From Phytoamicus setariae (lineage in GTDB: Bacteria > Pseudomonadota > Alphaproteobacteria > Rhizobiales > Rhizobiaceae): DNA of 64,000 nucleotides. The position numbers and the translations under genes were made by a program. Below are positions 4,200 through 63,210 of the stretch, piece after piece; the stretch's first letter is position 1; each line of letters opens with the position of its first letter. The stretch lies in assembly GCF_016722925.1 (NCBI RefSeq), contig NZ_JAEQNC010000008.1:124001-188000 (forward strand), read 5' to 3'. The notes beneath the pieces were generated by a model, which made no database searches, was not told where the DNA came from, and saw nothing but the letters and a program-made list of their open reading frames with translations.

Positions 4200-4467
4200 G
4201 GGCTTGTCGCAAACTTTCAGCCAGATCGCAATGAGCCCGAAACATCTCTTCCAGATCACGATAGCTGAGCGGATAGCGAAGCTACCAAGTCACCGCCTGC
4301 ATGACCAGCCATGCCTCGAAATGCCGGCCCTTGAAATCTTCTTTCGACCGGCGCTTCAGCTTTTCGGCAATGGCATTCAAAATCATCGGCCGCTCCGCAA
4401 TTTTTGGAGCGGCAATTTCTCTTCTGATGGTCAACATACCGTTAAGCGTGAAATTTGCGACATCACC
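4200..4467. mobile_element. Internally deleted IS6-family element (MITE-like, about 268 bp)
   Basis: The stretch between two convergent genes starts with GGGCTTGTCGCAAACTTTC and ends with the near-inverse GAAATTTGCGACATCACC. These are the same terminal repeats as the IS6-type copy at 60653-61540. Inside it, on the minus strand, only the N-terminal part of the transposase survives. It reads MILNAIAEKLKRRSKEDF, then KGRHFEAW and SYRDLEEMFR, and then stops being homologous. The catalytic core is missing, so it could move only with help from a complete relative. It fills almost the whole 318-base gap, and I see no other gene here. Confidence 0.68.
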
Positions 4468-4501
4468 GGTGAAACATGACAATTCCCGGCGAAGGCCATC
4501 T

Positions 4502-25923: not shown

Positions 25924-26610
25924 TCAATCTTCTTTCTGCAGCAGCGACTCGGCAAGCCGTGCGGCGGCGGCAATGTGCTCGCGGCAGGCCTTGGCCGCCG
26001 CATCCGGATCGTTGCGTTCGATCGCCGCGAAAATCTCGCGCAGTTGCGCCGGACCGGAAACGCTCCGGTTCGTGGTTGAAAGCGTCATGACACGCAGCCG
26101 CGAAATGCGGCTGTTGAGTCGGGAGACGATTTCCCAGGCAATGTCGTGGCCGGCGGCAGCGAAAATGATCTCGTAGAAGCGGGTCGTCACGTCAAGGACC
26201 GTCGGCGGCTCGTTCCTGCGTGAGTTCTGGTCGAGTTCATCGAGGACCAGTCTCAGCTTGTCCTTGGTCTCGATGTCTGCAGCGCGGGCGCAATCGGCGA
26301 CCGCCGACGATTCCAGCGCCGCCCTGATGTCGTAGATCTGCCGTGCGCCGTGCCAGTCCATGCTGGCGACCACCGGGCCCTGTTTGGCGATGTCCACCAG
26401 CCCCTCCGCCTGAAGGTGGCGGATCACTTCGCGGATCACAGAGCGGCTGACACCGAGCTGATCGCAAAGCGTGCGCTCCACCAAACGCTGGCCGGGTGCA
26501 AACAGGCCGGAGATGATCGCATCGCGCATGCGCTCAAGCGCTATTTCGCGCAGCGTCACGGGTGGGCTGACGATCTTGAGGGACGCGATATCAGAGACTG
26601 TTTTGTTCAT
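25924..26610 (-). CDS. GntR-family regulator (FCD/VanR subgroup), left copy
   Basis: A 228-aa regulator. The N-terminal winged helix (about 20-85) has the segment LGVSRSVIREVIRHLQAEGL, and the C-terminal FCD ligand domain (about 95-215) has an all-helical make-up. GntR/FCD proteins usually repress catabolic operons and respond to a carboxylated metabolite. It closely resembles the protein of 39506-40213 along its whole length, with shared stretches such as LREIALERMRDA/LREMALDRLRNA, LVERTLCDQLGVSRSVIRE and RISRLRVMTLSTTNR. It is divergent from the AA_synth-led operon, and a perfect palindrome lies in the gap between them. Confidence 0.88.
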   Translation of the reverse strand: MNKTVSDIASLKIVSPPVTLREIALERMRDAIISGLFAPGQRLVERTLCDQLGVSRSVIREVIRHLQAEGLVDIAKQGPVVASMDWHGARQIYDIRAALESSAVADCARAADIETKDKLRLVLDELDQNSRRNEPPTVLDVTTRFYEIIFAAAGHDIAWEIVSRLNSRISRLRVMTLSTTNRSVSGPAQLREIFAAIERNDPDAAAKACREHIAAAARLAESLLQKED

Positions 26611-39505: not shown

Positions 39506-40213
39506 ATGAAGCCGAAGCAATTTTCTGACCCCGTCGCCGATCATGCCACTGAGCGAAGCTCCCTTCGCATCGAGAACCCGCCGCTCACGCTTCGGGAAAT
39601 GGCGCTCGATCGTCTGCGCAATGCTGTCATCGCTGGCTTGTTCTCACCCGGCCAACGGCTGGTGGAGCGCGTCCTGTGCGACCAGCTTGGCGTTTCGCGT
39701 TCGGTCATTCGCGAAGTGCTTCGACACCTCGAGGCCGAAGGCCTGGTCGGCATAGCGCCCAAGCAGGGGCCGATCGTCGCGACGATCGACTGGCACCAGG
39801 CACGCCAGATCTACGACGTACGGCTAGCCCTTGAGACGACAGCGGTTGCCGATTGTGCCCGTTCAGCCGACACGGCGACCAAGGAGAAGCTATGCCAGCT
39901 TCTGGATCAGCTCGATGAGAACTCCACGAGGAACGATGCGCTCGCAATCCTGACCGTCACGAATAGCTTTTATGAAACGATCTTCCATGCCGGCGGCCAC
40001 GAAATTGCCTGGGATATCGTGGCGCGTCTCAATGGCCGTATATCGCGCTTGCGCGTTTTGACCCTTTCGACAACCAACCGCACCATCTCCGGACCCGCCC
40101 GCATGCGGCTGATCCTCGACGCGATCCTCGCCGTCGACCCGGACAAGGCCAGGGAAGCCTGCCGGGCGCACATCACCGAGGCCGCTCGGATCGCCAAAAG
40201 CTTGCTAGCGTGA
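39506..40213 (+). CDS. GntR-family regulator (FCD/VanR subgroup), right copy
   Basis: A 235-aa paralogue of the regulator at 25924-26610. The winged-helix domain contains LREMALDRLRNAVIAGLF and LCDQLGVSRSVIREVLRHL, nearly the same as in the left copy, including the recognition helix. The FCD domain follows with ISRLRVLTLSTTNRTISGP. It differs by one inserted residue after the helix-turn-helix and by scattered changes in the ligand domain. Equal recognition helices and equal operators imply that both proteins bind both promoters; different ligands are possible. Downstream of it, IS debris begins. Confidence 0.88.
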   Translation: MKPKQFSDPVADHATERSSLRIENPPLTLREMALDRLRNAVIAGLFSPGQRLVERVLCDQLGVSRSVIREVLRHLEAEGLVGIAPKQGPIVATIDWHQARQIYDVRLALETTAVADCARSADTATKEKLCQLLDQLDENSTRNDALAILTVTNSFYETIFHAGGHEIAWDIVARLNGRISRLRVLTLSTTNRTISGPARMRLILDAILAVDPDKAREACRAHITEAARIAKSLLA

Positions 40214-47009: not shown

Positions 47010-47858
47010 TTGAAAAAGATAATCGTATTAAGTGACATCCATCTTGGTCCATCTGGCACCGTGAAGTTCGGTCTGGACACGGCAGTGAGATTTGCCCGCG
47101 CACTCGATGATATCAACAAACTGTATGGAGATGCCGATCTCTGCGTCTTCGCCGGCGATATAGCCGATGAGGCCAATCCGGCAGCCTATCAGCTGTTTGA
47201 AGACATGCGCACGCGCCTTTCGATGCCGCAATACGTGCTTCTTGGCAATCATGATGACCGACAAGTCTATCTGGATAACTGCAAGGCTCCGATGCTGGAT
47301 GTCGATGGCTTCGTGCAGGGCGCGCATGATCTGGGCGACACACGCATAGTCATGCTCGACAGCTCTGAGCCTGGTCACGTTGAAGGCATCCTGTGTCCGA
47401 AACGACTAAGCTGGCTCTCCGAGCAATTGTCAGCCGCCAAGGCCAAAAACCAACAGGTTGTTTTGATTATCCATCACAACCCACAGAAGCTATTTATGCC
47501 GGTGGACCGCTACAGTTTGGCGGAACCCGATATGCTTTTATCAGTTCTGAAAGAAAGTGGCGCTCGTATTCCTCTCATTATGGCGGGTCATTGCCATATC
47601 ACCACGGCCGGAAGTTGGGGTGGCTTTCCAGTCGTGACGATCAGCGGAAATCAGCACAGCGTTGCGCCGTTTCTGCCGGGCATGACGGGCCAGCAAGCTT
47701 GCTACGAAGGACCCGCTCAGTTCGGCATTATCATGTGCGAAGAGGAAAACTGCACAGTACATTTCCATAGCTATATTAACCGGAATGTTGAGCTGCCTGC
47801 CGCAATGTTTCCATGGAAAAAGGACCAGTGGCAGAAGGTTCCAGATTTCTTACAATGA
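47010..47858 (+). CDS. Metallophosphoesterase, class III cyclic-nucleotide-phosphodiesterase-like
   Basis: A 282-aa calcineurin-like phosphoesterase. The five metal-binding motifs are complete: SDIHLG (D9, H11), AGDIAD (D50), GNHDD (N80, H81), IHHNP and AGHCH. The spacing matches CpdA/Icc proteins that split cyclic AMP and related glycerophosphodiester phosphodiesterases. The start is TTG with AAAGGAAAG eight bases before. It lies 17 bases after the last permease gene, so it belongs to the transporter operon and may process the imported ligand once inside. The stop codon sits at the edge of an IS6 end, so the native C-terminus may have been trimmed. Confidence 0.84.
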   Translation: MKKIIVLSDIHLGPSGTVKFGLDTAVRFARALDDINKLYGDADLCVFAGDIADEANPAAYQLFEDMRTRLSMPQYVLLGNHDDRQVYLDNCKAPMLDVDGFVQGAHDLGDTRIVMLDSSEPGHVEGILCPKRLSWLSEQLSAAKAKNQQVVLIIHHNPQKLFMPVDRYSLAEPDMLLSVLKESGARIPLIMAGHCHITTAGSWGGFPVVTISGNQHSVAPFLPGMTGQQACYEGPAQFGIIMCEEENCTVHFHSYINRNVELPAAMFPWKKDQWQKVPDFLQ

Positions 47859-47912
47859 AAGGGCGTCGTTCAGGGGATAATCGCGACCTGTGTGAATGTT
47901 TGCGACAGGCCC
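47857..47912. mobile_element. Solo terminal end of the IS6-family element
   Basis: From about GGGCGTCGTTCAGGGG to GTTTGCGACAGGCCC this stretch is nearly identical to the transposase-3' end of the copies at 53327-53601 and 60653-61540. No other part of the element is present. The following bases to 48047 contain a frame ATGCCGAAGCAAGACC... behind GAAAGGA that starts like a gene but reads only 26 codons before a stop. I cannot assign it. Confidence 0.6.
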
Positions 47913-48047: not shown

Positions 48048-49601
48048 TCAGCCGCGTGACAAATATGATCGAGAGCGATAGATGGGGCCACCATCAAATG
48101 CGTTGCGAAACAGCGCGGCCATCAATCCGATACCAAGCCCGAACATAAGGCCGCCAAAAAGCCCCGCAATCAAGAGCATGGCACGGCCAGGCGCATCAGC
48201 CGCAATTGGGGGAGTGGCTTCTGAAACGACTCGAATGTTGTTTTGTAAGAGGTTCTTCTCCTCGGTCGTCTCTCCTGCACGCTTGAGAACGGCCTCGTAT
48301 ATTTCCTTGTCGGCGGTGGCTTTGCGTTCAAGCTCCTTCAACTGCACCATCTCGGGTGAGATAGTCGATTGCAGCGACTTCTGGGCGGCAAGTTCACTCT
48401 GCAGGCTCTTCTCAGTTTTCGAGGCTTGATCGTATTCATCCTTGGCGCTCGACACCATGCGCGATAGCTCGTTTCTGAGCTCGCTCTTAAGCGTTTCCAT
48501 CGAGGCCTTGGCTGCAATCAGAGATGGATGCCTGGAACCCATCTGGCTTTCGAGCCTTCCGAGGCTCGACGCAAGATTGGCATATTGGACACGGAGGCTG
48601 CTGAGCGTGCTGGAAGCAACGGTGTCTTTCAGCGTACCGTTGACCACGTCATTCACGTTGATACGAGTGGCGGAATCGAGTTTGGACTTGGCAGCTATCG
48701 TCGCCTGTTGAGTGGTGACCAAAAGATCGTTGAGCGCCGTCAGGCGCTTGTCGGAGATTAGGTCGCCTTCTGCTTCGATCAGATCATTTTCCGACCGGAA
48801 TTGCTCCACCGCGCTTTCGGACTGTTCGACCTGCTTTCTCAGTTCATCCAACCGCCCTTGAAAGGCCGAGTTTATCGTCGCGTACTTGTCAAGCTTCCTC
48901 TGCTTCTCTTGATTGAGGAAAGTCTCGACCAGTGCATTCGCTATCTTGGCTGACTGTGTGGGCGAACCGGTCGTTACCTGGACTTCGGTGATGTAGGTAT
49001 CGTCCGCACGCGTGATCTTGATAGCTTTCTTTAGGGACCCAACGACATCCTCGACGGTTCCGCCGGCGCTGGGGAGATCTCTGGTAAGCCTCAGCTTCAT
49101 CACTACGGGCCAGACCACACTGTCGAGAGCAATGATTTTCGTTTGGCTGTCAATCGTCGCTTTCATGACTTCGGATTGCACACTCACGTCGCGACCTTCC
49201 TGGGAGGTGCGGATCGATGTAGGATCAAAATAGAGTGTCGATATAGCTGAATACTTGCTAGGAATTGTAATGGCGAACCCTGAACCACCCAACATGCCGG
49301 CGGCCACAAGACACAGCATCATGCCACGATAGGACCAGCCGATTCGCATCACAGAGAGAAGATCGATCAGGGGAATTCTTGTTCTGTGTTCGGCTGTCTG
49401 CTCATCGGCGGTTTCAAAGTAGTCCCGCTTTTCCGCCGAAGGATCTGGCTGTTCCAGCGATTTCGAGTCCGGCGCCTTTTTGGAAGCGATATACTGCGAG
49501 TATAGAACGACTGGCTTCTTGCTTCGAGTGTACGATCCGTCGGGGCGGATGCCTAATCGTGCCGTTGCAGCGGAAGGCGCTGTGCGATCTTGTTCTGACA
49601 T
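48048..49601 (-). CDS. Polysaccharide chain-length/export protein (Wzz/GumC/ExoP N-terminal type)
   Basis: A 517-aa inner-membrane protein. A cytoplasmic N-terminus of about 80 residues leads to the first membrane segment (GMMLCLVAAGMLGGSGFAI). A large periplasmic coiled-coil region (about 200-430) has Wzz features such as SPTQSAKIANALVETFL and LRVQYANLASSLGRLESQMG. The second membrane segment is RAMLLIAGLFGGLMFGLGIGLMAAL. Such proteins set polymer length and couple to the exporter. Many relatives add a tyrosine-kinase domain after the second helix; here the protein ends about 20 residues later, at the junction with transposon debris, so a kinase domain may have been lost. ATG 49601 is preferred to TTG 49649. 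Confidence 0.78.
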   Translation of the reverse strand: MSEQDRTAPSAATARLGIRPDGSYTRSKKPVVLYSQYIASKKAPDSKSLEQPDPSAEKRDYFETADEQTAEHRTRIPLIDLLSVMRIGWSYRGMMLCLVAAGMLGGSGFAITIPSKYSAISTLYFDPTSIRTSQEGRDVSVQSEVMKATIDSQTKIIALDSVVWPVVMKLRLTRDLPSAGGTVEDVVGSLKKAIKITRADDTYITEVQVTTGSPTQSAKIANALVETFLNQEKQRKLDKYATINSAFQGRLDELRKQVEQSESAVEQFRSENDLIEAEGDLISDKRLTALNDLLVTTQQATIAAKSKLDSATRINVNDVVNGTLKDTVASSTLSSLRVQYANLASSLGRLESQMGSRHPSLIAAKASMETLKSELRNELSRMVSSAKDEYDQASKTEKSLQSELAAQKSLQSTISPEMVQLKELERKATADKEIYEAVLKRAGETTEEKNLLQNNIRVVSEATPPIAADAPGRAMLLIAGLFGGLMFGLGIGLMAALFRNAFDGGPIYRSRSYLSRG

Positions 49602-49758
49602 TAGGTCGCTCTTCGAATTGTCTTCGTCTAGTCGATTGATAAAAATCAATAAACTTTTGTAGTTAATAATTGGTTTGCTCTGATCTGCTCTGATCCCTCA
49701 AAACGGGATCGTTTGTAATTGGGCACCGTGGGAAGATCCAAGGGCGGAGCCTTTACCG

Positions 49759-51949: not shown

Positions 51950-53194
51950 TCAACGACGTATCTGCGGTGGCCGTCCGCCGTCCGAAACGTTCATATATCC
52001 GACTAACAACCACAAAAGCCCAGCGATCTTAATGGAAAAAACCGCTGTACCGCCGATCATCATGTTCATAAAAAAGAAAATAGAAAGTGAATATGCACAT
52101 CGCCTTTGAGCTGGCGTTCTCCCTACCGGGAAGAAACATACAAATAACCAAAGAGCTGTAAAGCCGAAGATTGTGCTCGCGACGACGACATAGACATAGC
52201 CGCTATCCATCAATTCGGCGATACTTGGAATGCCAAGGCCCAAGATAGCCGGAAAATCTAATTCTATTATCTTTTTAACTGTCAGAACTACTCGGCCATC
52301 CAAATCGTCTCCGACAGCCTCGGGCGACACGATGTAGACAAGGAAACCAGCAATCACCACCAGCGGCATGATCAGGAGCGAAAGAGACTTGTCTAGGCGG
52401 GGAAAAACAAAATAACCAACATAGCACATGCTGGCGAACATCAGCATCGTACGTGAGTCGTTCGTGACTAGGATTAGTGCAATCGTGAACATGAAGAGTA
52501 CACGATCGAAGATCCTCGTCTCCTTGAACATGGAAATCAAGAAAACCAGCAGCACGCCGGAAAAATTGGCAAGCGAAACCTGCTCGACGAACAAGGACGA
52601 TGTCCGATGGTCGGCGATATTGAACGAGAAGCGGCCTGGAATCTTGATCGAATTCTGAAAGAGCTTTGACCCACCGAAGGAAATCTGCTCGAGCCCTCTA
52701 GTGTTGCGAAAATAATTCGCCGGTTCGAACAGGTCTTCAAAGATCTTTGTCCACCATGTTTCGACAATAAGGACTCCGAGCACCAGCAAGCATGCGACGC
52801 GAAATGTGATAATTATGGTCTGCTTGTTGGCATAAGTGCCGAGAAGACCGAAGCAGCATATGATCAGTGTATTACGAAAAAAATCGACGAAGACAGTTTT
52901 GTTTATCACCGAGACGTAGCTAGCAATCAAGAGATTGAAGATCACGAAGATAACCACGATTATATCTTCTCGATAAATCCCGCGATTGAGGACATAGAGA
53001 AGTGCCGCCGCAAGAACGGCAATCTCCGTTACCGCGACATGCGCGAATGCCATCGGCATGACGTGAGCGTTTATGATGGATAGACCACCGTTATAAAGAA
53101 CGGCCGCTAACGCCATCGCACATATGGCAATGCTCGCCGCCTCTTTGTGCTCAAGTGTGGCGTAATGAACGGTAGAGTTGGTGAGCTGACTCAT
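51950..53194 (-). CDS. Wzy/ExoQ-like polysaccharide polymerase or ligase
   Basis: A 414-aa inner-membrane protein with roughly ten to twelve hydrophobic segments and one large periplasmic loop (about 160-215, RNTRGLEQISFGGSKLF...), as in O-antigen polymerase/ligase and ExoQ proteins. Sequence similarity in this family is low, so the assignment rests on topology, the loop position, and the neighbours (chain-length protein, acyltransferase, glycanase). The gene has lower GC than most of the window, which is normal for such membrane proteins. It is the first gene of the leftward polysaccharide operon; the promoter must lie in the short space before the IS debris. Confidence 0.72.
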   Translation of the reverse strand: MSQLTNSTVHYATLEHKEAASIAICAMALAAVLYNGGLSIINAHVMPMAFAHVAVTEIAVLAAALLYVLNRGIYREDIIVVIFVIFNLLIASYVSVINKTVFVDFFRNTLIICCFGLLGTYANKQTIIITFRVACLLVLGVLIVETWWTKIFEDLFEPANYFRNTRGLEQISFGGSKLFQNSIKIPGRFSFNIADHRTSSLFVEQVSLANFSGVLLVFLISMFKETRIFDRVLFMFTIALILVTNDSRTMLMFASMCYVGYFVFPRLDKSLSLLIMPLVVIAGFLVYIVSPEAVGDDLDGRVVLTVKKIIELDFPAILGLGIPSIAELMDSGYVYVVVASTIFGFTALWLFVCFFPVGRTPAQRRCAYSLSIFFFMNMMIGGTAVFSIKIAGLLWLLVGYMNVSDGGRPPQIRR

Positions 53195-53209: not shown

Positions 53210-53326
53210 GGGCGCTGAGAGGGGGTGAATCGCCCCGGCTTTGCCGGAGACCGTTTGGTTTAAGTTATGCGGCCAATGCTGGTTTGTCCAGCATGGCGTA
53301 GTATCGTTTTTCCGCTTCGGCTGACC
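53210..53326 (-). pseudogene. 3' remnant of an unidentified transposase gene
   Basis: On the minus strand a frame ends EAEKRYYAMLDKPALAA and a stop (53325 down to about 53268), then a tail ACTTAAACCAAACGG leads into a G/C-rich end. The short peptide and the following end sequence look like the last codons and terminal repeat of an insertion sequence (IS3- or IS21-like), but too little is left to name it. It directly touches the IS6-derived element. Confidence 0.35.
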
Positions 53327-53601
53327 GGGCGTGTCGCAAACTTCCGTGTTTAACCCGATGGACCATCAGAAGAGAAATTCGCGCTCCAAATCTTGTGGAG
53401 CGTGCCGATGATTCTGGATGCCATTACCGAAAAGCTGAAGCGCCGGTCTAAAGAAGATTTCAAGGGCCGGCGGCGGCTGGACGATCAACGATCAGAACGA
53501 TCTGCTTGCGCGCCTCTTCGGACTGAAAAAGATTAACAAAGCATGAAAAGGGCGTCGTTCAGGGGATAATCGCGACCTGTGTGAATGTTTGCGACAAGCC
53601 C
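53327..53601. mobile_element. IS6-derived miniature element (275 bp) with internal deletion
   Basis: Both ends are intact: GGGCGTGTCGCAAACTTCC on the left and GTTTGCGACAAGCCC on the right. The left 140 or so bases carry the transposase start (MILDAITEKLKRRSKEDFKGR). The sequence then jumps directly to GGWTINDQNDLLARLFGLKKINKA, the last 24 codons. Compared with the 888-bp copy at 60653-61540, about 610 bases are missing. The breakpoints share CCGGC, and the remaining bases are nearly identical to that copy. This is how a non-autonomous element that can still be mobilised arises. The fused frame is not a functional protein. Confidence 0.78.
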
Positions 53602-53760
53602 GCTTTGGTCTCGCTAAATGGAGCGTCACCCTTCGCACGCACAGCACCTCCAACGTCCCTTCAACAAGATTGATTTCATATCTGCGTACCAGGGTGAGAA
53701 CTACTGATGAAGACGACGGCTTGCTTTCACAACTTCCACCGATCGCAATCAGTTAACCAC

Positions 53761-53844: not shown

Positions 53845-55776
53845 ATGTGCGGCATCGCCGGGTATTTCGGACACGTTCCAGACGGAGCGAATTTGCTTTC
53901 CCGTATGGCCGGCGCGATCGTGCATCGCGGACCGGATGGGCAAGGCGTGTCTTCGTGGCCGAACGCCGGTTTGGCGCACCGCCGCCTCGCGATTGTCGAC
54001 CTCGCGAATGGCCAACAGCCGATGTCGACCGAGGACGGCAGGTTCTCAATCTCGTTCAACGGCGAGATTTTCAACCACGTCGAACTACGGCGGGAGCTTG
54101 AGGCCAAGGGACGCCGCTTCAGAACCGCGACAGACACCGAAGTCATCCTGCATCTCTATGAGGAACTCGGAGAACGATCCCTTTCCCTGCTGAACGGCGA
54201 TTTTGCTTTCGCGGTCTGGGATTCTGTCCGGGAACAAATGTTTCTCGCACGCGACAGGATGGGCGTGAGGCCGCTCTTCTACACCCGTCATCGCGCGGCT
54301 GTATATTTCGCCTCCGAGGTGAAAGCTTTGTTGCAGGTGCCGGGGCTTCAGGCCACGCTTGACACCGTTGCCCTCGACCAGATTTTCACGCTCTGGGCAC
54401 CGTTGGCCCCGCGGACGGCATTCAAGAATATCTTCGAACTGGAGTCTGCGACATATGCCATCGTGGATCGAGACGGCGTAAGGACCAGCCCCTACTGGAG
54501 ACTGGAATTTCCGGACCATGGTGACCACTCGCCGACAGATGCAACCGACGAACTCGGCGATCTCTTGGCTGATGCAGTCCGGCTACGGCTCAGGGCGGAC
54601 GTCCAGGTCGGCTGCTATCTTTCCGGCGGCCTCGATTCTTCCCTCGTGGCGGCGATTGCCTCTGAACAGGGCGGCCAGCCTCTGCGAACGTTCGCACTCG
54701 CCTTCGAAAGCTCGGAGCACGACGAGCGCCTTTTTCAACAGATCGTGGCCGACCGATTGGGTACGCGGCATGTTCAGACGGTGATCGCTAATGGCGATGT
54801 GGCGCTGGATTTTCCTGATGTCGTCCGCCATACGGAACGGCCCGTCATCCGTTCAGCTCCAGCCCCTCTTTTCTCGCTCGCCCGGACAGTGAGAGCCGAC
54901 GGAATCAAAGCCGTTCTGACGGGAGAAGGAGCCGACGAGATCTTCGCCGGATACGATATCTTCAAGGAGGCGAAGGTGCGGCGGTTTTGCGCTCGTCAGC
55001 CCGCTTCGAAAAAGCGTCCGCTTCTGTTCCGAAAACTCTATCCCTATCTTCCGAATCTCAATCGGCAGCCAGCCGAGTACCTCTCGGCCTTTTTCTCCGT
55101 TGGAGCGGAAGACCTCGCCGATCCGCTGTTCTCGCACCGACCGAGGTTCAAGTCGACAGCCGCGTCGAAGATGTTCTTTTCCGAAGACCTGCGACGAACG
55201 CTTGGACGTTACGACGCGGCCGAGGAGATGGCGTCCCTCCTGCCCGACGACTTCCGCCGCTGGCATCCGCTGCACCAGGCGCAGTACCTCGAAACACGCT
55301 TCCTGCTCCCCGGTTACATCCTTTCCAGCCAAGGGGACCGGATGGCCATGGCGCACGGTGTTGAAGGACGCTTCCCCTTCCTCGACCATCGGCTGGTCGA
55401 GTTCGCTGCCCGGCTTGCGCCTGAACGGAAGCTCCGGGGACTGGACGAAAAACACATCCTGCGCCGCGTTGCCAGAGACCGTCTGCCCGAGGTGATCGCC
55501 GAACGCAGGAAACAGCCTTATCGAGCGCCTGACAGCGAAGCCTTCGTCGGAAGAGGCACGCATGGATTCGTCGACGCGGCACTTCGGCCGGAAACCGTCA
55601 AGGAGTTCGGGGTCTTCGATCCGGCGAAAGTGAAAAGGCTGCACGAGAAATGTGCGGCAAACCCTTCATCCGGGTTCAGGGACAATTCGGCGTTCATGGG
55701 AATATTGTCGACCCAGCTTTGGCAGCAGACCTTTTCTGAGGGATCGGCGGCAAGGGCCGCCACCTCGGCAGCGTAA
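53845..55776 (+). CDS. asnB: Asparagine-synthase-type glutamine amidotransferase (AsnB family)
   Basis: A 643-aa class II glutamine amidotransferase. The N-terminal glutaminase begins MCGIAGYF, giving the catalytic Cys2 after removal of Met. It contains the glutamine-binding RLAIVDL and FNGEIFNH elements. The synthetase domain has the pyrophosphatase loop YLSGGLDSS near residue 260 and later GEGADEIFAGYD. It transfers ammonia to a carboxylate via an acyl-adenylate, normally aspartate to asparagine. Biosynthetic clusters often use variants that amidate other acids, for example sugar acids or carrier-bound acids. It is the first gene of six that also include an acyl-carrier protein and a ligase, so an unusual substrate is probable, though not demonstrated. 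Confidence 0.83.
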   Translation: MCGIAGYFGHVPDGANLLSRMAGAIVHRGPDGQGVSSWPNAGLAHRRLAIVDLANGQQPMSTEDGRFSISFNGEIFNHVELRRELEAKGRRFRTATDTEVILHLYEELGERSLSLLNGDFAFAVWDSVREQMFLARDRMGVRPLFYTRHRAAVYFASEVKALLQVPGLQATLDTVALDQIFTLWAPLAPRTAFKNIFELESATYAIVDRDGVRTSPYWRLEFPDHGDHSPTDATDELGDLLADAVRLRLRADVQVGCYLSGGLDSSLVAAIASEQGGQPLRTFALAFESSEHDERLFQQIVADRLGTRHVQTVIANGDVALDFPDVVRHTERPVIRSAPAPLFSLARTVRADGIKAVLTGEGADEIFAGYDIFKEAKVRRFCARQPASKKRPLLFRKLYPYLPNLNRQPAEYLSAFFSVGAEDLADPLFSHRPRFKSTAASKMFFSEDLRRTLGRYDAAEEMASLLPDDFRRWHPLHQAQYLETRFLLPGYILSSQGDRMAMAHGVEGRFPFLDHRLVEFAARLAPERKLRGLDEKHILRRVARDRLPEVIAERRKQPYRAPDSEAFVGRGTHGFVDAALRPETVKEFGVFDPAKVKRLHEKCAANPSSGFRDNSAFMGILSTQLWQQTFSEGSAARAATSAA

Positions 55777-55786
55777 AGAGAGAAAA

Positions 55787-56050
55787 ATGTTCAGCAATCC
55801 AGTGGTAGAGATAAGAAGATTCATCGTCGAAAACTTCTTGTTCGGAGACGAAAGCGCCATGACCGGCGACAAGGAATCCCTGATAGACAACGGGATCCTG
55901 GACTCCACCGGCGTGCTCGAACTCGTGGCGTTCATCGAGGAGACCTACGACTTCACGATGGCCGATGAGGAAATCATTCCCGCAAACCTCGATTCCGTCG
56001 TCCGGATCGCGGGCTTCGTGATGTCGAAGACGGTACGCCAATCGGCGTAA
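55787..56050 (+). CDS. Stand-alone acyl/aminoacyl carrier protein
   Basis: An 87-aa four-helix carrier protein. The phosphopantetheine site is in GILDSTGVLELV (Ser40), in the D-S-x-G pattern typical of ACPs and of DltC-like aminoacyl carriers. It continues with helix II/III residues FIEETYDFTMADEEI and IAGFVM. The chain is acidic, as expected. It is encoded eleven bases after the amidotransferase gene and fourteen bases before an adenylate-forming ligase gene, which would load it. No ketosynthase or condensation domain is nearby, so the carrier probably supports a single tailored building block. Confidence 0.8.
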   Translation: MFSNPVVEIRRFIVENFLFGDESAMTGDKESLIDNGILDSTGVLELVAFIEETYDFTMADEEIIPANLDSVVRIAGFVMSKTVRQSA

Positions 56051-56063
56051 GCGGAGGTCGGCG

Positions 56064-57617
56064 ATGCGCTTCGAACGGTTCCTGGACGATAGTTCAAGGC
56101 GTTTCGCCTCCAAGACGGCGATCGTCGCCGGATCCACGCGAATGACCTATCAGGAGTTGGACCCTCTCTCGCAGGGGCTCGCCAATGTCCTGTTCGAGCA
56201 TGGCGTGCGCAGCGGCGACCGCGTGCTCGTCTTCATGGACAATTGCGCCGAAGCGGCTGTTTCCATTTTCGGCATCTTGCGGGCCGGTGGCGTGTTCAGC
56301 GTTATCAACCCTTCCACCAAGGCCTCGAAGCTCGCCTACATCATCGACGATTGCGAACCCGCTGCCATCCTGACGTCGGGTCGTTTGCTGCAGATCGCCC
56401 GGCAGGCTCTTAAAGAAGCCGCGACACCCCGCCCGCCGTTCGTGCTGGCGACAGGTATCGATGCGGAAGAGATGACCACCAGCAGGATCGGGTCGTTCGA
56501 AGCCTGCCGTTCCGGGCCTTCCGGTCCCGTGAGGCATGGGGGTACGGAAGATGACCTCGCGATGCTCGTCTACACGTCGGGTTCCACCGGGCGGCCCAAG
56601 GGCGTGATGATGACGCATCGCAACGTCGAGGCGGCTTCGAAGTCCATTATTTCCTATCTCGAGAGCACTCCCGACGACATCATTTTCAACGTGCTGCCAC
56701 TTGCCTTCGACTATGGCCTCTACCAGTTGCTGATGTCGGTCCGCCTCGGCGCGACGCTGGTGCTGGAGAAATCCTTCGCGTTTCCTTCCGCGATGCTCGA
56801 CATGATGCGCCGCGAGAAGGTCACCGGCCTCCCTCTGGTCCCGACGATGGCGGCAGTCCTGCTGCGCATGCGCGATCTTGCCCCGGGATCGCTGCCAACG
56901 CTGCGTTACATCACAAACACGGCGGCGGCGCTGCCCGTCGACCACATTGCCGATTTGCAACGGCTGTTTCCGGATGCGCTTCTCTATTCGATGTACGGGC
57001 TTACGGAATGCAAGCGCTGCACCTACCTGCCTCCTTCGGAGCTGGGACGGAGACCGGATTCGGTGGGCATCCCCATTCCCGGCACGGAGGCGTTCGTGGT
57101 GGGCGGCAAGGGAGAAATCGTAGAGCCCGGCGAAATCGGCGAATTGGTCGTGCAGGGACCGCATGTCATGCGGGGCTACTGGCGCGACGAGGTCGCCACC
57201 GCTGACGCTTTGCGACCCGGACCGAACCCGCTGCTCCCGGCACTGCACACGGGAGACCTCTTTCGTCGAGACGAGGATGGCTTCCTGTATTTCGTCGGGC
57301 GTCGGGACGACATCATCAAGACAAGGGGTGAGAAAGTCGCTCCCAAGGAGGTGGAAGCGGTTCTCCATACCCATCCCGGCGTCGCCGAAGCGGTGGTGAC
57401 GGGCGTCGCCGATCCCGTCCTGGGCCAAGCCGTCTCCGCTTTGGTGGTCATCCGCGACAAGAGTGTCACGGTCGGCGAACTCATCCGCCATTGCCAACGC
57501 GATCTCGAGGATTTCATGGTTCCGAAACACCTGGCTCTCACCGAAAGCCTGCCGAAGACCGATACGGGCAAGGTCAGCCGGAGGCTTGCAGCGGCGTTAT
57601 TGGAGGCGGACCTTTGA
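56064..57617 (+). CDS. Adenylate-forming acyl/aminoacyl ligase (AMP-dependent)
   Basis: A 517-aa stand-alone adenylation enzyme. The P-loop is YTSGSTGRPKGVMMTHR (about residues 170-186), the core motif YGLTECKRCTYL lies near 310, the TGDLFRRDEDGFLYFVGRRDD hinge near 395, and a C-terminal catalytic lysine in TDTGKVSRR. These match acyl-CoA synthetase/DltA/NRPS A-domain relatives. The neighbouring carrier protein is its likely acceptor in place of CoA. A cysteine-rich active-site stretch (ECKRC) replaces the usual E-A-x and may reflect an unusual acyl group. The start is at 56064, and the final TGA overlaps the TTG of the next gene. Confidence 0.83.
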   Translation: MRFERFLDDSSRRFASKTAIVAGSTRMTYQELDPLSQGLANVLFEHGVRSGDRVLVFMDNCAEAAVSIFGILRAGGVFSVINPSTKASKLAYIIDDCEPAAILTSGRLLQIARQALKEAATPRPPFVLATGIDAEEMTTSRIGSFEACRSGPSGPVRHGGTEDDLAMLVYTSGSTGRPKGVMMTHRNVEAASKSIISYLESTPDDIIFNVLPLAFDYGLYQLLMSVRLGATLVLEKSFAFPSAMLDMMRREKVTGLPLVPTMAAVLLRMRDLAPGSLPTLRYITNTAAALPVDHIADLQRLFPDALLYSMYGLTECKRCTYLPPSELGRRPDSVGIPIPGTEAFVVGGKGEIVEPGEIGELVVQGPHVMRGYWRDEVATADALRPGPNPLLPALHTGDLFRRDEDGFLYFVGRRDDIIKTRGEKVAPKEVEAVLHTHPGVAEAVVTGVADPVLGQAVSALVVIRDKSVTVGELIRHCQRDLEDFMVPKHLALTESLPKTDTGKVSRRLAAALLEADL

Positions 57618-58609
57618 ACGGTCGCGGCACGCAACAGGCGGATGCGGCGTTTCTCGATATCGATAGCGCCGCGGAAATCGACCGCATCGCGGTGGCCATG
57701 CGCAGCCAATTGCGGGCAATGAAGAAGCGCGGGCTGATCCTGGGGCTTTCCGGCGGCATCGACTCCAGCGTCTGCGCGACTCTCGCGGTCAAGGCGGTCG
57801 GAGCGAAGAACGTGCTAGCCCTGCTGATGCCGGAGCAAGACTCGGAGTCCGACAGCGGCCGGCTGGGCAGGCTTGTCGCTGATCGGCTGGGGATTGAATA
57901 CGTTGAAGAGGACATCGCACCCACTCTTGCGGCGCTAGGGTGCTATGCACGGCGGGACGCCTTTATCAGGCAGGTCGTGCCGGATTATGGTCCAGGATGG
58001 CGTTCCAAGGTCGTCATTGCCGAACTGGCCTCACATGACGGCTTTCGCCTATCATCGCTGGTCGTCGAGGACCCGGACGGAAACAAGGAGACGCACCGCC
58101 TGTCCTTGTCGGCGTATCTGGGCATCGTCGCTGCCACCAGCATGAAGCAGCGCACCAGGAAGCTGATCGAATATTACCACGCCGATCGGCTGAATTTCGC
58201 GGTGCTCGGCACGCCAAACCGCCTTGAGTTCGACCAGGGCTTCTTCGTCAAGAATGGCGACGGCGCTGCGGACCTGAAACCTATCGCGCATCTTTACAAG
58301 ACCCAGGTCTATGCACTGGCGGCATCACTCGGGATCCCCGATGAAATCCAGCGCCGTCCGCCGACGACCGACACCTACAGCCTGTCGCAGACGCAGGAGG
58401 AGTTCTACTTCTCCCTGCCATACGCCCAGATGGACATCTGCCTGTTCGGCTTGAACAACGGCCTCTCGGCCGATAGCGTCGGATTTGCCGCCGGGCTGGC
58501 ACCCGAACAGGTGGAGCGCGTCTGGCGGGACATTCGCTCCAAACGGAAAACGACCGCCTATCTGCACTCCAAGGCGCAACTCGCAGGAGAGGTTCCCGAA
58601 GTCTCCTAG
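57614..58609 (+). CDS. NAD-synthetase-like ammonia ligase (ATP-pyrophosphatase family)
   Basis: A 331-aa protein of the NadE fold. It has GLSGGIDSSV (about residues 44-53, the pyrophosphate loop), the LGTPNRLEFDQGFFVKNGDGAADLKPIAHLYKTQV core and LGIPDEIQRRPPTTD. True NadE forms NAD from deamido-NAD and ammonia. Here the loop following the core reads DTYSLSQTQEEFYFSLPY, and about 30 residues at the N-terminus and tail differ from housekeeping NadE. Inside a biosynthetic cluster it may form an amide or similar N-acyl bond on another substrate. I chose TTG 57614, overlapping the ligase stop (TTGA), because GGAGG lies seven bases upstream. The TAG stop is shared with a palindromic repeat element. 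Confidence 0.78.
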   Translation: MNGRGTQQADAAFLDIDSAAEIDRIAVAMRSQLRAMKKRGLILGLSGGIDSSVCATLAVKAVGAKNVLALLMPEQDSESDSGRLGRLVADRLGIEYVEEDIAPTLAALGCYARRDAFIRQVVPDYGPGWRSKVVIAELASHDGFRLSSLVVEDPDGNKETHRLSLSAYLGIVAATSMKQRTRKLIEYYHADRLNFAVLGTPNRLEFDQGFFVKNGDGAADLKPIAHLYKTQVYALAASLGIPDEIQRRPPTTDTYSLSQTQEEFYFSLPYAQMDICLFGLNNGLSADSVGFAAGLAPEQVERVWRDIRSKRKTTAYLHSKAQLAGEVPEVS

Positions 58610-58711
58610 AGCAATTCCAGCAAAAGAGCGCAGCGGTTTTGTGTTCGGGATTGCGTTAAAATAGAGGGCTAGAGCGCTTCCGCGATTCGGAGAAAAGCGG
58701 AAATGCTCTAG
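58606..58711. repeat. Rhizobial palindromic repeat (CTAGAGC ... GCTCTAG)
   Basis: A 106-bp element bounded by CTAGAGC and GCTCTAG, with the internal blocks AATTCCAGCAAAAG, GCAGCGGTTTTG and AGAGCGCTTCCGCG that are typical of dispersed repeats in Rhizobiaceae. Its arms can fold into long hairpins. It supplies the TAG stop of the NadE-like gene and separates it from the convergent GNAT gene, so it may also end transcription from both sides. It points strongly to the host group. Confidence 0.65.
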
Positions 58712-58717
58712 GGTCTG

Positions 58718-59812
58718 TCAGTCGAACTTTCCGCCGATGTGGCGACCCCAGCTTTCTCCGGCGAGGCCGTTCACAAAGGCTTTTCCTGCAGCGAAGCAAT
58801 CGAGGACCGCTTCATCACGCGAAAACACGATGGTGGAGGAGGCGTTGGCAAAGAATATGCCCTTGCCGAGCATGGCATGCAGAAACGCCTGCTGTGTACG
58901 TCCGCGCAGGCCCGCCGCTCCGCGCTGATCGGCGTCATGGAGCATAATATCGACTACCGTTCCCTCCATCCCGGGTCGGGCGAGTATTTGCAGCACGCGG
59001 CCCACGCCGCCCTCGTGGAGATGATAGAGAACTGCTCCGACCGGCACGCCATCCGGCCTCGTGACCAGCACGGCGACAGGTTCCCCGTAGAGGGGCTTTT
59101 CAAATGCCTCGCGCACCGTATACCGCAGCAGTCTTTCTTCCCAAGAAAGCCGCAATTCGTAATGCGTCGTCAGGGGCACGATGGCATCTGCGAACTCGCC
59201 CGCATCGACACGCGTGACGAGGAGCCCGCCCATCGCGCTTCGGGCCTGCTCCTTGCCGGGGCCGCCTCGTTTGTACAGGCGGTCCAGGGTGCGGGCAGCC
59301 GGAAGCACCAACTTGCGAAGCGGGGATTTCCTCAAGACCATGTCGCAGCCGAACGCCGCGGGTCTGAGGATGCGCATCCACTCCAGGCTGTAGGGAGCGA
59401 GTACCGTGCCCCTCAGGGCGCGGGCCATATCGAGCGAAGTCTTGTTTGCCGTTTCGCTAAGCGACAGGTCTTGTGGCCCCGACAGGAAGGACTTCAGCAA
59501 CCTCGCGCCCGCGGTAGGGTTTTTCTCGCGGTCCCGCACCATCAGCGCGCCACAAAAGGCGGCCTTCAACGTGCTGCCCTTGAACGTCATCGGCACAACA
59601 TTGACGCCGACGAAACCCGAGACGACGCCTCCACCGTCGACGTGAACCAGCGACGGGATCTCGGCATCCACGGTCGGCCCGCCGAGATAGAACTCACCAA
59701 GGCATTTCGCCAAGCCGGGCGACGGCGTGGCACGCGGCTTAAGAAACGTGTCCTGGTAGAGAGCCGCGACCTCGCCGATATCTCTCTCCTGAAGCGGCCG
59801 GACATGACTCAC
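58718..59812 (-). CDS. GNAT-fold acyltransferase-like protein
   Basis: A 364-aa protein. The N-terminal part (about 1-150) looks like a GNAT acetyltransferase: VRPLQERDIGEVAALYQDTF at the start, GFVGVNVVPMTF in the core, then FCGALMVRDREKNPTAGARLLKSFL, with the acyl-donor loop region. The C-terminal half (about 190-355), with LLVTRVDAGEFADAIVPL and DGVPVGAVLYHLHEGGVGRVLQIL, may form a second degenerate GNAT domain. These enzymes move acyl groups from CoA or carrier proteins to amines or alcohols. It overlaps the methyltransferase gene by four bases, so both form one leftward pair facing the amidotransferase operon. The acyl donor may be the loaded carrier protein. Confidence 0.65.
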   Translation of the reverse strand: MSHVRPLQERDIGEVAALYQDTFLKPRATPSPGLAKCLGEFYLGGPTVDAEIPSLVHVDGGGVVSGFVGVNVVPMTFKGSTLKAAFCGALMVRDREKNPTAGARLLKSFLSGPQDLSLSETANKTSLDMARALRGTVLAPYSLEWMRILRPAAFGCDMVLRKSPLRKLVLPAARTLDRLYKRGGPGKEQARSAMGGLLVTRVDAGEFADAIVPLTTHYELRLSWEERLLRYTVREAFEKPLYGEPVAVLVTRPDGVPVGAVLYHLHEGGVGRVLQILARPGMEGTVVDIMLHDADQRGAAGLRGRTQQAFLHAMLGKGIFFANASSTIVFSRDEAVLDCFAAGKAFVNGLAGESWGRHIGGKFD

Positions 59813-60513
59813 GCTGTCGATCTCCCATTCGGTTCTCCCGCGGGAGCAAAGCGCCGCGCGACGGCGACGCGAGGCACGCCGTTGGCATCCGCTATGAATT
59901 CGGCGGGATGATACGCCTTGCTGCGTGCGATGAGCGTGCCGACCTGCCGAGCCTGCCCCTCCCCGAATTCACACAGCAGAAAACCGCCGGGCTTGAGGAA
60001 AGCGACGGCTTCACGAACCAGCCGTTGATGGACCGAGATACCGAAGGGACCACCGTCGAACGCCTCACGCGGTTCGTCAACCAGAAGATCGGCTTTCGGC
60101 CCGTCGAGCCGCGACGTCGAAATATAAGGAGGATTGCAGACGATCATGTCGATCGTTCCCTCGAGCCTGTCATCCGTGAAGGCGGCAAACAAGTCGCCCT
60201 GGCGGACCTCGATTCGGTCCGCCAGGGCGTTGAGTTCACAGTTGAACTTCGCAACTTGCATCGCAGCAGATTTCAAGTCGGCAGCCCACACCTTGCAGTG
60301 GGCAACCCGCGCGGCGATCGCGACCGCCAAATTGCCGCTGCCGCAGCACATGTCGATCACCCGAAGAGTCCTGTCCACCGGGAACTCGAGGAGGCATTGC
60401 ACGGCGTGGTTCCCCAGCGTTTCTGTTTCGCGGCGCGGCTTGAGGACGCCTTCCGGCGCGATAACATCGACGCCCATGAATTTCATCGAGTTTCGTTGTT
60501 CGTCCGTCGGCAT
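59809..60513 (-). CDS. HemK/PrmC-like class I SAM methyltransferase (NPPY motif)
   Basis: A 234-aa soluble methyltransferase. The SAM-binding motif is VIDMCCGSGNLAVAIA (about 52-67), and the catalytic NPPYIS (127-132) is the sequence used for methylation of planar amide or amino nitrogens. PrmC of housekeeping type carries an extra N-terminal helical domain and acts on release factors; here that domain is nearly absent. Within this cluster a small amide product of the amidotransferase is a plausible target. The short PREAFDGGPFG stretch matches the PrmC core. It is the first gene of the leftward pair. Confidence 0.78.
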   Translation of the reverse strand: MPTDEQRNSMKFMGVDVIAPEGVLKPRRETETLGNHAVQCLLEFPVDRTLRVIDMCCGSGNLAVAIAARVAHCKVWAADLKSAAMQVAKFNCELNALADRIEVRQGDLFAAFTDDRLEGTIDMIVCNPPYISTSRLDGPKADLLVDEPREAFDGGPFGISVHQRLVREAVAFLKPGGFLLCEFGEGQARQVGTLIARSKAYHPAEFIADANGVPRVAVARRFAPAGEPNGRSTA

Positions 60514-60652
60514 GGCTGTCCCGTGGTGTATGAACCGATCTAGGCAGCATCGAACACGAATCCTACTAAATTCGTACTAATACGGCGGCGATTCTGCTTT
60601 ACGAGCTCCCTGGGAAAGGGAATCTCTCACCGCAGTTGTTTACATCGCAGAC

Positions 60653-61540
60653 GGGCTTGTCGCAAACATTCACACAGGTCGCGATTATCCCCTGAACGAC
60701 GCCCTTTTCATGCTTTGTTAATCTTTTTCAGTCCGAAGAGGCGCGCAAGCAGATCGTTCTGATCGTTGATCGTCCAGCCGCCGGAAAAGCCGAAGCCCTT
60801 CCTCAGCCACAGCATCGCTTCAAAACCGGCAATCGTTCGCCTCGCCGTTTTGAAGGTCTGGAAACCGCCGATTCTAGGCATGTTCTTCTTCACCCGAAAT
60901 GGTCGCTCTCGATGCCTTGCTGGAGATGCTTGGTGACGCAATGCACGGGATCTGGATGCAACAGTCCATCATCGACTGACGTTTTGATCGCCGACGGGAA
61001 GGTATTGGCGCCATCCGTGCCGATCTTTTCAGGCGAGAGCAAGGGCTCGTTCTTCAGCATCTTGCGGAAGACGCGCTTGGCAGCATCCAGATCACGCCTT
61101 GCAGTCAGCAGGAAATCGACGGGGTTTCCGTGCTTGTCGATGGCTCGATACAGATATCGCCATTTGCCGCGTATCCTGATGTAGGTTTCGTCAATCCGGA
61201 CCGATCCGCAATGGGGCCGGCGGAACTGGCGAAGCCGCTTCTCGATCATCGGCGCAGAGGCCAGAACCCACCTGTTGATCGTGCTGTGATCGACCCAAAC
61301 CCACGTTTGCGAAACATTTCTTCCAGATCCCGATAGCGGAGCGGATAGCGCAGATTACCATGCCACCGCCTGCACGATCAGCCGTGCCTCGAAATGCCGG
61401 CCCTTGAAATCTTCTTTAGACCGGCGCTTCAGCTTTTCGGTAATTGCATTCAGAATCATCGGCACGCTCCACAAGATTTGGAGCGCGAATTTCTCTTCTG
61501 ATGGTCCATCGGGTTAAACACGGAAGTTTGCGACACGCCC
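60653..61540 (-). mobile_element. IS6-family insertion sequence, 888 bp, frameshifted transposase
   Basis: The element begins GGGCTTGTCGCAAACATTC and ends in the inverse of GGGCGTGTCGCAAACTTCC. The transposase reads leftward from ATG 61459: KRRSKEDFKGRHFEA, SYRDLEEMF, then RIDETYIRIRGKWRYLYRAID with the first aspartate, GTDGANTFPSAIK with the second, and FKTARRTIAGFEAM with the glutamate. Two single-base shifts interrupt it, near 61287 after DLEEMFRKRG and near 60895 within SDHFRVKKN. No eight-base target duplication is visible. The copy is probably inactive, yet its ends match the miniature elements at 4200 and 53327. Confidence 0.82.
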
Positions 61541-61695
61541 GAATTCGGGCTTGGACCGATGCTGATGGCTTTGCTCAAGGCAAATGGCGGCAACGCGCGG
61601 AAGGCGGGGTAGGGGATGATTTATGGTTGGAGGTCGTGGGAGTTCAAATTGAATCGCGACGACGGATCTCGCCTGGAATGTGACTGCGGCAAGCG

Positions 61696-62412: not shown

Positions 62413-63210
62413 TCACAAACCGGCTGCCTTGGTGAGATTAATCCTGAACCGGTCGGGTCGGCGCTGATACTTGCGCGTCATTTCTGCCGATGCATGCCCA
62501 AGCTGCTTTTGCACATAGCGTTCGTCGACCTCGGCCGACGAAGCGAGACCCGCGCCTAGCGAATGGCCGGCAAATTTCTGCGCTCGTTCGGCTTCGCTGA
62601 GATCACCGCGCACGCCCGCCGCCAGCGCTGGGCGCTTTACCAGCTTTGCCACTTCCTGATCATGCAGGCGATCGGGGCCGACAGCCTTGCCTTGCCCGGT
62701 CACGCGGCGAAAAATCGGGCCATGGTGAATTTTTGCGAGTTTGAGCCAAGTCTGGACGGCAACAACCGGGCAGGTGGCATCGGATGAGCCACGACCAATC
62801 TCGACTTCGCGCCACCCAGTCTTTTCCCGGATCGTGAGCGGAATGCCCTTATCCAAAATCTCGATCCAGCCCGAACAATCGTCGGTTTGGTCGCGACTGA
62901 CGTCAAGGTCGACGATTTCAGAGCGTCGTAAGCCGCCGGCAAATCCCACAGCAGCATGGCGCGATCCCGCAAGCCTCGCAGAGTGCCACGGTCGAGCGTT
63001 TCAAGCATGGCCAGGATGTCTTCTGGCAGCACGGCTTCCTTCTGGCGGGGAGGGGATGCATGCGTGTTGCGGATACCGGCGAGCACGGTTGCAATATGCC
63101 GATCCTTCCGGTCCAACGACAAGCCGCGCTGGGAAAAATTCCAGATGAGCGAGGACAGCCGCCTTTCGATCGTCGCCACCGAATTCGGTTGCTGCTCGCC
63201 CGGAGTTACT
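62413..63210 (-). pseudogene. Tyrosine recombinase/integrase, frameshifted and mutated
   Basis: On the minus strand an integrase of the rhizobial plasmid type can be followed: SVATIERRLSSLIWNFSQRG, RDRAMLL, then a one-base frameshift near 62950, then GLRRSEIVDLDV (catalytic arginine), KTGWREVEIGRGSS, EVDERYVQKQLGHASAEM and the terminal tyrosine in TRKYQRR. The normal HSLRAG box reads HSLGAG, so the second catalytic arginine is lost. Frameshift and missing residue mean the enzyme is dead. The 5' end is cut off by the scpB fragment that follows. An attachment site is not visible. Confidence 0.75.

Follow-up and report, generated by a model that had tools for sequence, protein, structure and literature searches.

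In a 64,000-nucleotide stretch of the Phytoamicus setariae genome (contig NZ_JAEQNC010000008.1, positions 124,001 to 188,000; hereafter the window), we studied six adjacent genes, one of them for a free acyl carrier protein (ACP). The plus strand encodes an AsnB-like glutamine-dependent amide synthetase of 643 amino acids (aa) at 53845–55776, which scored 509 bits against TIGR01536 (cut-off 267); a free carrier protein of 87 aa with a DST serine site at 55787–56050, whose start was picked inside a longer open reading frame (ORF); a VinN-type adenylating ligase of 517 aa at 56064–57617, which matched VinN in the pocket and TIGR03098 best in NCBIfam, below the cut-off (441 bits, cut-off 592); and a NadE-like amide synthetase of 331 aa without a glutaminase domain at 57614–58609, which scored 498 bits against NF002048 (NAD(+) synthase; cut-off 313) and for which a TTG start was chosen, a longer ORF being listed. 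The minus strand encodes a tandem GNAT acyltransferase of 364 aa with a GTG start at 58718–59812, assigned through a structure model as the probable transfer enzyme, and a HemK/PrmC-type methyltransferase of 234 aa without the PrmC N-terminal part at 59809–60513, which scored 152 bits against TIGR00536 (cut-off 115.5) and thus belongs to the HemK-type superfamily. The two sets lie tail to tail. The AsnB and ACP genes are 10 bases apart and the ACP and ligase genes 13 bases. The original prediction, made from the letters of the window alone, had described six packed genes in two facing sets with ATGA and TTGA overlaps. All six genes were confirmed as real at the positions given here, and the NCBIfam and Pfam searches concurred for AsnB, ligase, NadE and methyltransferase. 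The 4-base TTGA overlap was found between ligase and NadE; no ATGA was seen, and the second 4-base overlap, between methyltransferase and GNAT, is GTGA as deduced from start codon and coordinates.

Conservation and distribution of the cassette

Scanning genomes with the NadE-like protein yielded 342 relatives, from which the best 80 loci, the nearest relatives, were retained; L044 and L048 in this set are almost identical. The neighbours were searched up to 10 kb on either side and counted by tblastn, because a simple ORF caller overlooked the ACP or NadE gene in some loci. The genes for AsnB, ACP, ligase and NadE occurred in the same order and on the same strand in 80/80 loci, whereas the GNAT, counted as present at ≥35% identity, and the methyltransferase were found in 76/80 and 52/80 of the fetched stretches, respectively. 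AsnB-ACP-ligase-NadE is a conserved cassette, and since its catalytic residues are conserved as well, the gene set is not a product of chance. A further 17 NadE-like loci were collected from 14 genomes of a phylum sample (besides the window's own) and from three additional hits of the relative search; L160 is a repeat of L046, and L154, L157, L158 and L159 come from genomes outside the class. ACP and ligase lay near NadE in 17/17 of these loci and AsnB in 16/17, the exception being L152. Overall, ligase and ACP accompanied the NadE-like gene in 97/97 loci, one being the repeat. The order was NadE-AsnB-ligase-ACP in L146, L148, L151, L153 and L156 and AsnB-ligase-ACP-NadE in L154. As a control, the canonical NadE loci had AsnB, ACP, ligase, GNAT or methyltransferase in 0/32 cases within flanks of only ~1.5 kb. 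The prediction of one carrier-protein pathway, which was to fall if the genes occurred only separately in other genomes, is thus supported by their co-occurrence, including the four-gene order in 80/80 loci. The gene set had also been thought unusual; the cassette is widespread and so not peculiar to this genome, and the closest kin that we found is the XrtA ligase/decarboxylase module described below.

In three of the reordered cassettes, an ORF of 911–930 aa adjoins NadE (L153:6260-8995, L146:2359-5115 and L151:9954-12746). The one in L153, which was scanned, contains amino-acid adenylation and thioesterase domains; a possible role of this ORF is that of a second enzyme for loading or release.

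When the phylum sample of 398 genomes was scored against NF002048, the cut-off was exceeded in 15 genomes, as it was in 1/14 control genomes. The GNAT family was present in 10/398 genomes, 7 of which were among the 15 NadE-like genomes (Fisher p 2.5e-9 over the 398 genomes and 0.003 within 17 genomes of the window's family, both values ignoring the relatedness of genomes). In 4/7 genomes having both, the GNAT lay near the cassette. A close NadE-like match was absent from all eight other genomes of the same genus that were searched, 4/8 of them <90% complete (best E 9e-9), which indicates a patchy distribution of the cassette within the genus. In the window, inverted remnants of a single insertion sequence (IS) element flank the cassette at 53326–53602 and 60652–61541; they share 132 identical bp and a further 146 bp at 98.6% identity, and the right copy contains an IS240-type DDE domain. 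The bracketing remnants and the lack of a close match in the eight genomes fit acquisition by a mobile element. More pieces resembling the remnant were noticed at 4238–4470 and 47858–47911, and a phage-integrase-type fragment lies to the right of the cassette at 62413–62949 (30.9 bits, cut-off 27.1).

The ligase and carrier protein

The full-length ligase matched chains of a multidomain linear gramicidin synthetase at the top of its PDB matches and then VinN. When a 160-residue stretch containing the pocket was searched, VinN (3wv4/3wvn) scored 104.8/104.4 bits and the next other protein 45. The two pockets have TECKR and TN[ST]AAALP in common, and the alignment with VinN placed in the ligase the amine-binding Asp, a bulky residue at 236 and Lys-Arg in the loop, the features of a VinN-type pocket. 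Residues were counted over alignment rows (99 for AsnB, 100 each for ACP and ligase and 57 for methyltransferase). The Arg and Lys517 of the ligase were present in 100/100 rows, and the amine-binding Asp and the Lys of Lys-Arg in 88/100 each. According to the available text of the published reports, VinN D230 contacts the amine of the substrate, with F231, S299, K330 and R331 as further key pocket residues, and 3-methyl-aspartate is bound as a beta-amino acid (PMC11253843); AfcQ activates L-Asp at its side chain (PMC12186527); and in vicenistatin biosynthesis VinN loads 3-methyl-aspartate onto VinL, where VinO decarboxylates it on the carrier (PMC11284099). Given the VinN-type pocket, we predict that the ligase most likely uses an acidic amino acid, which it would activate at the side-chain carboxyl, rather than the generic acid that had been proposed from the window.

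The ACP had no Pfam match. All its NCBIfam matches fell below cut-off, AmcB ranking behind the best one, whereas its PDB matches under E 0.001 were two peptidyl carrier proteins and 6cxt; weaker matches included aminoacyl, PigG, D-alanyl and an acyl carrier. The carrier serine was conserved in 100/100 rows.

The two amide synthetases

AsnB was the sole protein over the TIGR01536 cut-off in the window's genome and stayed below the cut-offs of the XrtA family TIGR03108 (440 against 817 bits) and of AsnB PRK09431 (328 against 499). Its Cys2 was present in 95/99 rows, the remaining four being gapped at this position, and the PP-loop with its Asp as well as the E348 and K449 equivalents were present in 99/99, one row differing at one loop glycine. 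The best PDB match was the hydroxyamidotransferase 7ylz. An asnO/ngg locus for N-acetylglutaminylglutamine amide was considered and rejected, as had been argued before: AsnB scored 372 bits against AsnO TIGR03104 (cut-off 570), and no ATP-grasp Ngg match was obtained among the six cluster proteins in NCBIfam and Pfam, a search that left most other ORFs of the window unscanned.

The NadE-like protein was modelled in the NAD synthetase fold (pLDDT 83.8) and retains the ATP loop. Several positions that are fixed in ammonia-dependent NAD synthetases (13 such enzymes compared) carry other fixed residues in it, from which we infer a different acceptor acid. In a tree of 63 rows (four canonical loci lacking a recognisable motif were excluded), 35 NadE-like rows were split from 28 canonical NAD synthetases by a 100/100 branch ~4.4 changes long, the program warning of long branches. 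A canonical NadE is encoded elsewhere in the window's genome (250 bits). On the basis of the separate clade and the second NadE we rejected a housekeeping NadE, in agreement with the distinction drawn in the original prediction. The protein that now carries the NAD synthase label is very likely a relative put to another use.

Proposed amidation in place of decarboxylation

Relatives of the ligase occur in XrtA-type polysaccharide loci, where NCBIfam labels the ligase and decarboxylase families hypothetical equivalogs. With TIGR03098 at E ≤ 1e-120, which was reached in 30/249 genomes, we obtained 30 ligase loci comprising six NadE cassettes (the window, L149, L150, L151, L153 and L155) and 24 others that were fetched. 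Twenty of the 30 had the decarboxylase, six the NadE-like gene, four neither and none both. In the 24 fetched loci, a TIGR03099-type decarboxylase dependent on pyridoxal phosphate (PLP) lay within the fetched stretch in 17/20 and 3/4, and the NadE-like gene in 0/24. Eight decarboxylase candidates were scanned, and TIGR03099 was the best family in 8/8 and over its cut-off in three. The loci having neither gene were L176, L187, L193 and L197, with an AsnB relative in L176 and L197 and a short AsnB-like piece in L193. Conversely, a TIGR03099-type decarboxylase was present in 0/80 and 0/19 NadE-like loci at E 1e-10, and tblastn at E 1e-3 gave none in the window. Since decarboxylase and NadE-like enzyme never occurred together in these loci, a carrier-bound acidic amino acid seems to be amidated here instead of decarboxylated, the NadE-like enzyme seemingly occupying the place of the decarboxylase. 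The pocket Asp, Met, Arg and Lys were common to 20/20 related XrtA-type ligases, and the L195 ligase has a ten-residue code identical to that of the window ligase, yet its locus contains the decarboxylase. In L159, the NadE cassette lies beside an XrtA polysaccharide deacetylase above its cut-off (391 against 276 bits), together with XrtA-type kinase, ATPase and outer-membrane proteins below cut-off.

GNAT and methyltransferase

The GNAT had no match in Pfam or NCBIfam. In Foldseek, its model (pLDDT 89.5) matched N-myristoyltransferases first and also Eis2 and a Kribbella GNAT, with TM of about 0.44–0.59, and FemX was not among the 50 structure matches listed. The alignment of the model over most of its length to N-myristoyltransferase and Eis2 (rmsd 5.6–8.7) suggests two GNAT domains. 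The methyltransferase falls outside the PrmC release-factor family (TIGR03534, 166 against 199 bits, with the alignment beginning at profile position 52), and NPPYIS was present in 57/57 methyltransferases. Its probable role is methylation of the product, which the tandem GNAT probably passes on to polysaccharide. When ligases and methyltransferases were compared in 100 loci, 61 had the pocket Asp and the methyltransferase, 27 the Asp only, 12 neither and none the methyltransferase only, counts that ignore kinship and include loci cut by contig ends. As the loss of the Asp coincided with absence of the methyltransferase in 12/12, the enzyme may act on an amine rather than an amide.

Polysaccharide genes and the Sinorhizobium meliloti counterpart

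The genes upstream in the window encode a Wzc/GumC-type chain-length protein on the minus strand (48048–49649; TIGR01005 125 bits, below 412; PF13807 32.6 bits, cut-off 27.7), a GH5 protein, an acyltransferase 3 and, on the minus strand, a hydrophobic protein that resembles Wzy/O-antigen ligase by eye only (51950–53194) and had no NCBIfam or Pfam match; these are context outside the core. The Wzx, Wzc, Wzy and deacetylase proteins of L050 were used as probes at ≥30% identity, and at least one of them was present in 40/80 loci. The best match of the L050 deacetylase was the holdfast HfsH family, at 170 bits against a cut-off of 400. Elsewhere in the window, two ORFs at 25924–26610 and 39506–40213 that by eye encode similar GntR-type regulators flank a transporter/oxidoreductase region in opposite orientation.

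On S. meliloti pSymB, an ACP and a ligase lie beside AsnB and NadE-like genes and are so annotated in strain RCAM1115. A class I methyltransferase of this strain, with a protein listed as hypothetical, lies next to a flippase-type gene annotated for lipopolysaccharide biosynthesis; a few genes further come GumC, an O-antigen ligase, a deacetylase and glycosyltransferases. The ACP-ligase pair is probably orthologous to SMb20650/SMb20651, an identity based on an ACP-ligase pair being located on pSymB, the strain 1021 record carrying no gene names. The available portions of PMC7232532 describe SMb20650 as a predicted long-chain enzyme that is cotranscribed with the ACP SMb20651 and cannot replace FadD, and, citing earlier work, the formation of acylated SMb20651 in E. 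coli with the acyl group unnamed. The seen text of other reports flags SMb20651 in 2017 as needing more investigation (PMC5686131) and gives smb20650 as down-regulated under Myxococcus attack (PMC10315480). Our literature search, limited to partial texts and not covering the 2009 SMb20651 study (doi 10.1099/mic.0.022079-0), returned no description of the cassette or its product. A Zoogloea/Aquincola polysaccharide cluster is reported to contain two asparagine synthetase genes, so far as the accessible part of PMC9012009 goes.

Proposed pathway and its alternatives

From the computed gene set, conservation, pocket residues, NadE-like clade and exclusivity, we propose a carrier-tethered amino-acid amide pathway that serves a surface polysaccharide, a reading to which we give a probability of about 0.5 and in which the substrate, each reaction and the acceptor are predictions. 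The VinN-type ligase would adenylate an acidic amino acid (aspartate or one closely related to it) at the side-chain carboxyl and load it on the free ACP, leaving the alpha-amine and the alpha-carboxylate free. In XrtA-type loci, the PLP enzyme would decarboxylate this residue to a beta-alanyl-type group, whereas in the cassette the carboxylate would be kept and capped as an amide by the NadE-like enzyme. AsnB may share in the amidation, supply ammonia or amidate a second carboxylate such as that of a uronic acid. The product would be methylated at one of its nitrogens by the PrmC-type enzyme, and its transfer from the ACP to an amino sugar would fall to the tandem GNAT. Of the original prediction of a carrier-protein amide pathway, perhaps for glycan decoration, the single pathway is retained through gene co-occurrence and the polysaccharide link through 40/80 loci, while the generic acid gives way to an acidic amino acid.

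Several observations weigh against the proposed pathway. No probe-set polysaccharide gene was found near 40/80 loci, and the methyltransferase was missing from 28/80. The GNAT was on another contig in 3/7 genomes having both genes, 8/15 NadE-like genomes lacked the GNAT family and three GNAT genomes lacked the NadE-like gene. The amine-binding Asp was absent in 12/100 ligases and the Lys of Lys-Arg in 12/100, so the substrate may differ there, and 0/20 XrtA-type ligases had Lys-Arg (19 Phe-Arg, one His-Arg). The best NCBIfam match of the ACP was an ornithine-lipid ACP model (51 against 130 bits). Membership in the HfsH/holdfast system was rejected for the window's genome, which had only a 25.8-bit HfsH-like match. 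The presence of two amide synthetases in one pathway is not fully explained, and we know of no product or mass for the cassette.

AsnB-type enzymes in polysaccharide loci are commonly assigned uronic acid amidation, which favours a reading in which one polysaccharide carries two separate modifications: AsnB, perhaps with the NadE-like enzyme, would amidate uronic acids, and ligase, ACP and GNAT would add an acyl or aminoacyl group, with the amide chemistry never on the ACP. Such a scheme, which we hold to be rather unlikely, would agree with the polysaccharide genes near 40/80 loci and with the AsnB relatives that in L176 and L197 lie near a ligase accompanied by neither NadE nor the decarboxylase. 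Against it, the linkage of ligase and ACP to the NadE-like gene in 97/97 loci and the exclusivity of NadE-like enzyme and decarboxylase suggest that the NadE-like enzyme acts on a carrier-bound group. The half of the 80 loci without nearby probe-set genes would suit a secreted or stored small molecule (an amide osmolyte, metallophore or signal) rather than polysaccharide decoration, as would thioesterase-domain proteins adjoining NadE in L147, L153 and L156, the one in L153 being fused to an amino-acid adenylation domain; the recurrence of genes for Wzx, Wzc, Wzy, deacetylase and glycosyltransferases next to the remaining loci and in S. meliloti, the flippase-type gene in L156 and the position of L159 within an XrtA-like locus make this quite unlikely.

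Loading of a fatty or hydroxy-fatty acid by the ligase, for use by the GNAT in making an N-acyl sugar or lipid, appears improbable. The acyl-CoA ligase annotation, the long-chain prediction for SMb20650 (PMC7232532, text seen in part), the ornithine-lipid model as the best, below-cut-off match of the ACP and N-myristoyltransferases as first Foldseek matches would speak for it, whereas peptidyl carriers were the best PDB matches of the ACP; a fatty-acid ligase was set aside as the leading explanation because of the VinN-like pocket and the inability of SMb20650 to replace FadD for oleate, as stated in the same partial text. A chance adjacency of paralogous housekeeping asparagine and NAD synthetases would account for the NF002048 name and for AsnB standing alone over the TIGR01536 cut-off; given the separate NadE clade, the canonical NadE elsewhere and the fixed gene neighbours, we consider it highly improbable.

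Beyond the proposed amide pathway, we more tentatively suggest, at less than even odds, that a VinN-type aminoacyl-ACP entry step is common to proteobacterial polysaccharide loci, which then branch: the XrtA-type loci would decarboxylate the aspartyl group on the carrier, and the cassette would use the NadE-like enzyme to amidate it. On this view, the NAD synthase name of NF002048 would be wrong, the family being an aspartyl-ACP amide synthetase (isoasparaginyl-ACP synthase), and amino sugars of the polymer would bear (N-methyl) isoasparaginyl groups. The scheme offers a testable function for the SMb20650/SMb20651-type rhizobial genes and for the XrtA polysaccharide ligase and decarboxylase. 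If true, a family annotated NAD synthase, with 15/398 phylum genomes over its cut-off, has another role, and rhizobial surface polymers would be expected to carry a new amino-acid amide group; charge on these polymers could affect adhesion and host contact.

Comparison with known systems

The cassette resembles VinN/VinL/VinO of vicenistatin and AfcQ of AFC-BC11 in having a stand-alone adenylating enzyme and a free ACP for what is here a predicted acidic amino acid, with Asp, a bulky residue and Lys-Arg in the pocket; it differs from the vicenistatin system in that the six cluster proteins gave no decarboxylase or polyketide synthase match and include amide synthetases, a methyltransferase and a GNAT instead. 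Compared with NAD(+) synthase NF002048/PRK00876, the NadE-like protein is over the family cut-off and shares the fold and ATP loop, but forms a separate clade with other fixed residues in a genome that has a canonical NadE elsewhere. In the S. meliloti locus, ACP and ligase likewise lie beside AsnB and NadE-like genes, whereas methyltransferase and GNAT are ~10 kb away, next to the Wzx-type gene. The combination of a tandem GNAT with a deacetylase recalls the logic of the Caulobacter holdfast, where HfsK, a tandem GNAT, was suggested to acylate amines exposed by HfsH with an acyl group left unidentified in the available text of PMC5362036; the GNAT here is likewise a tandem GNAT by its model, and the window's genome differs in having only a 25.8-bit HfsH-like match. 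With the XrtA/PEP-CTERM module (TIGR03098 ligase and TIGR03099 decarboxylase), the cassette shares a related ligase, the Asp/Met/Arg/Lys pocket and the polysaccharide context, and in L159 one NadE cassette lies inside an XrtA-like locus; it departs from that module in a ligase below the TIGR03098 cut-off (441 < 592), in a Lys-Arg instead of a Phe-Arg pocket loop and in having NadE-like and AsnB enzymes in place of the decarboxylase.

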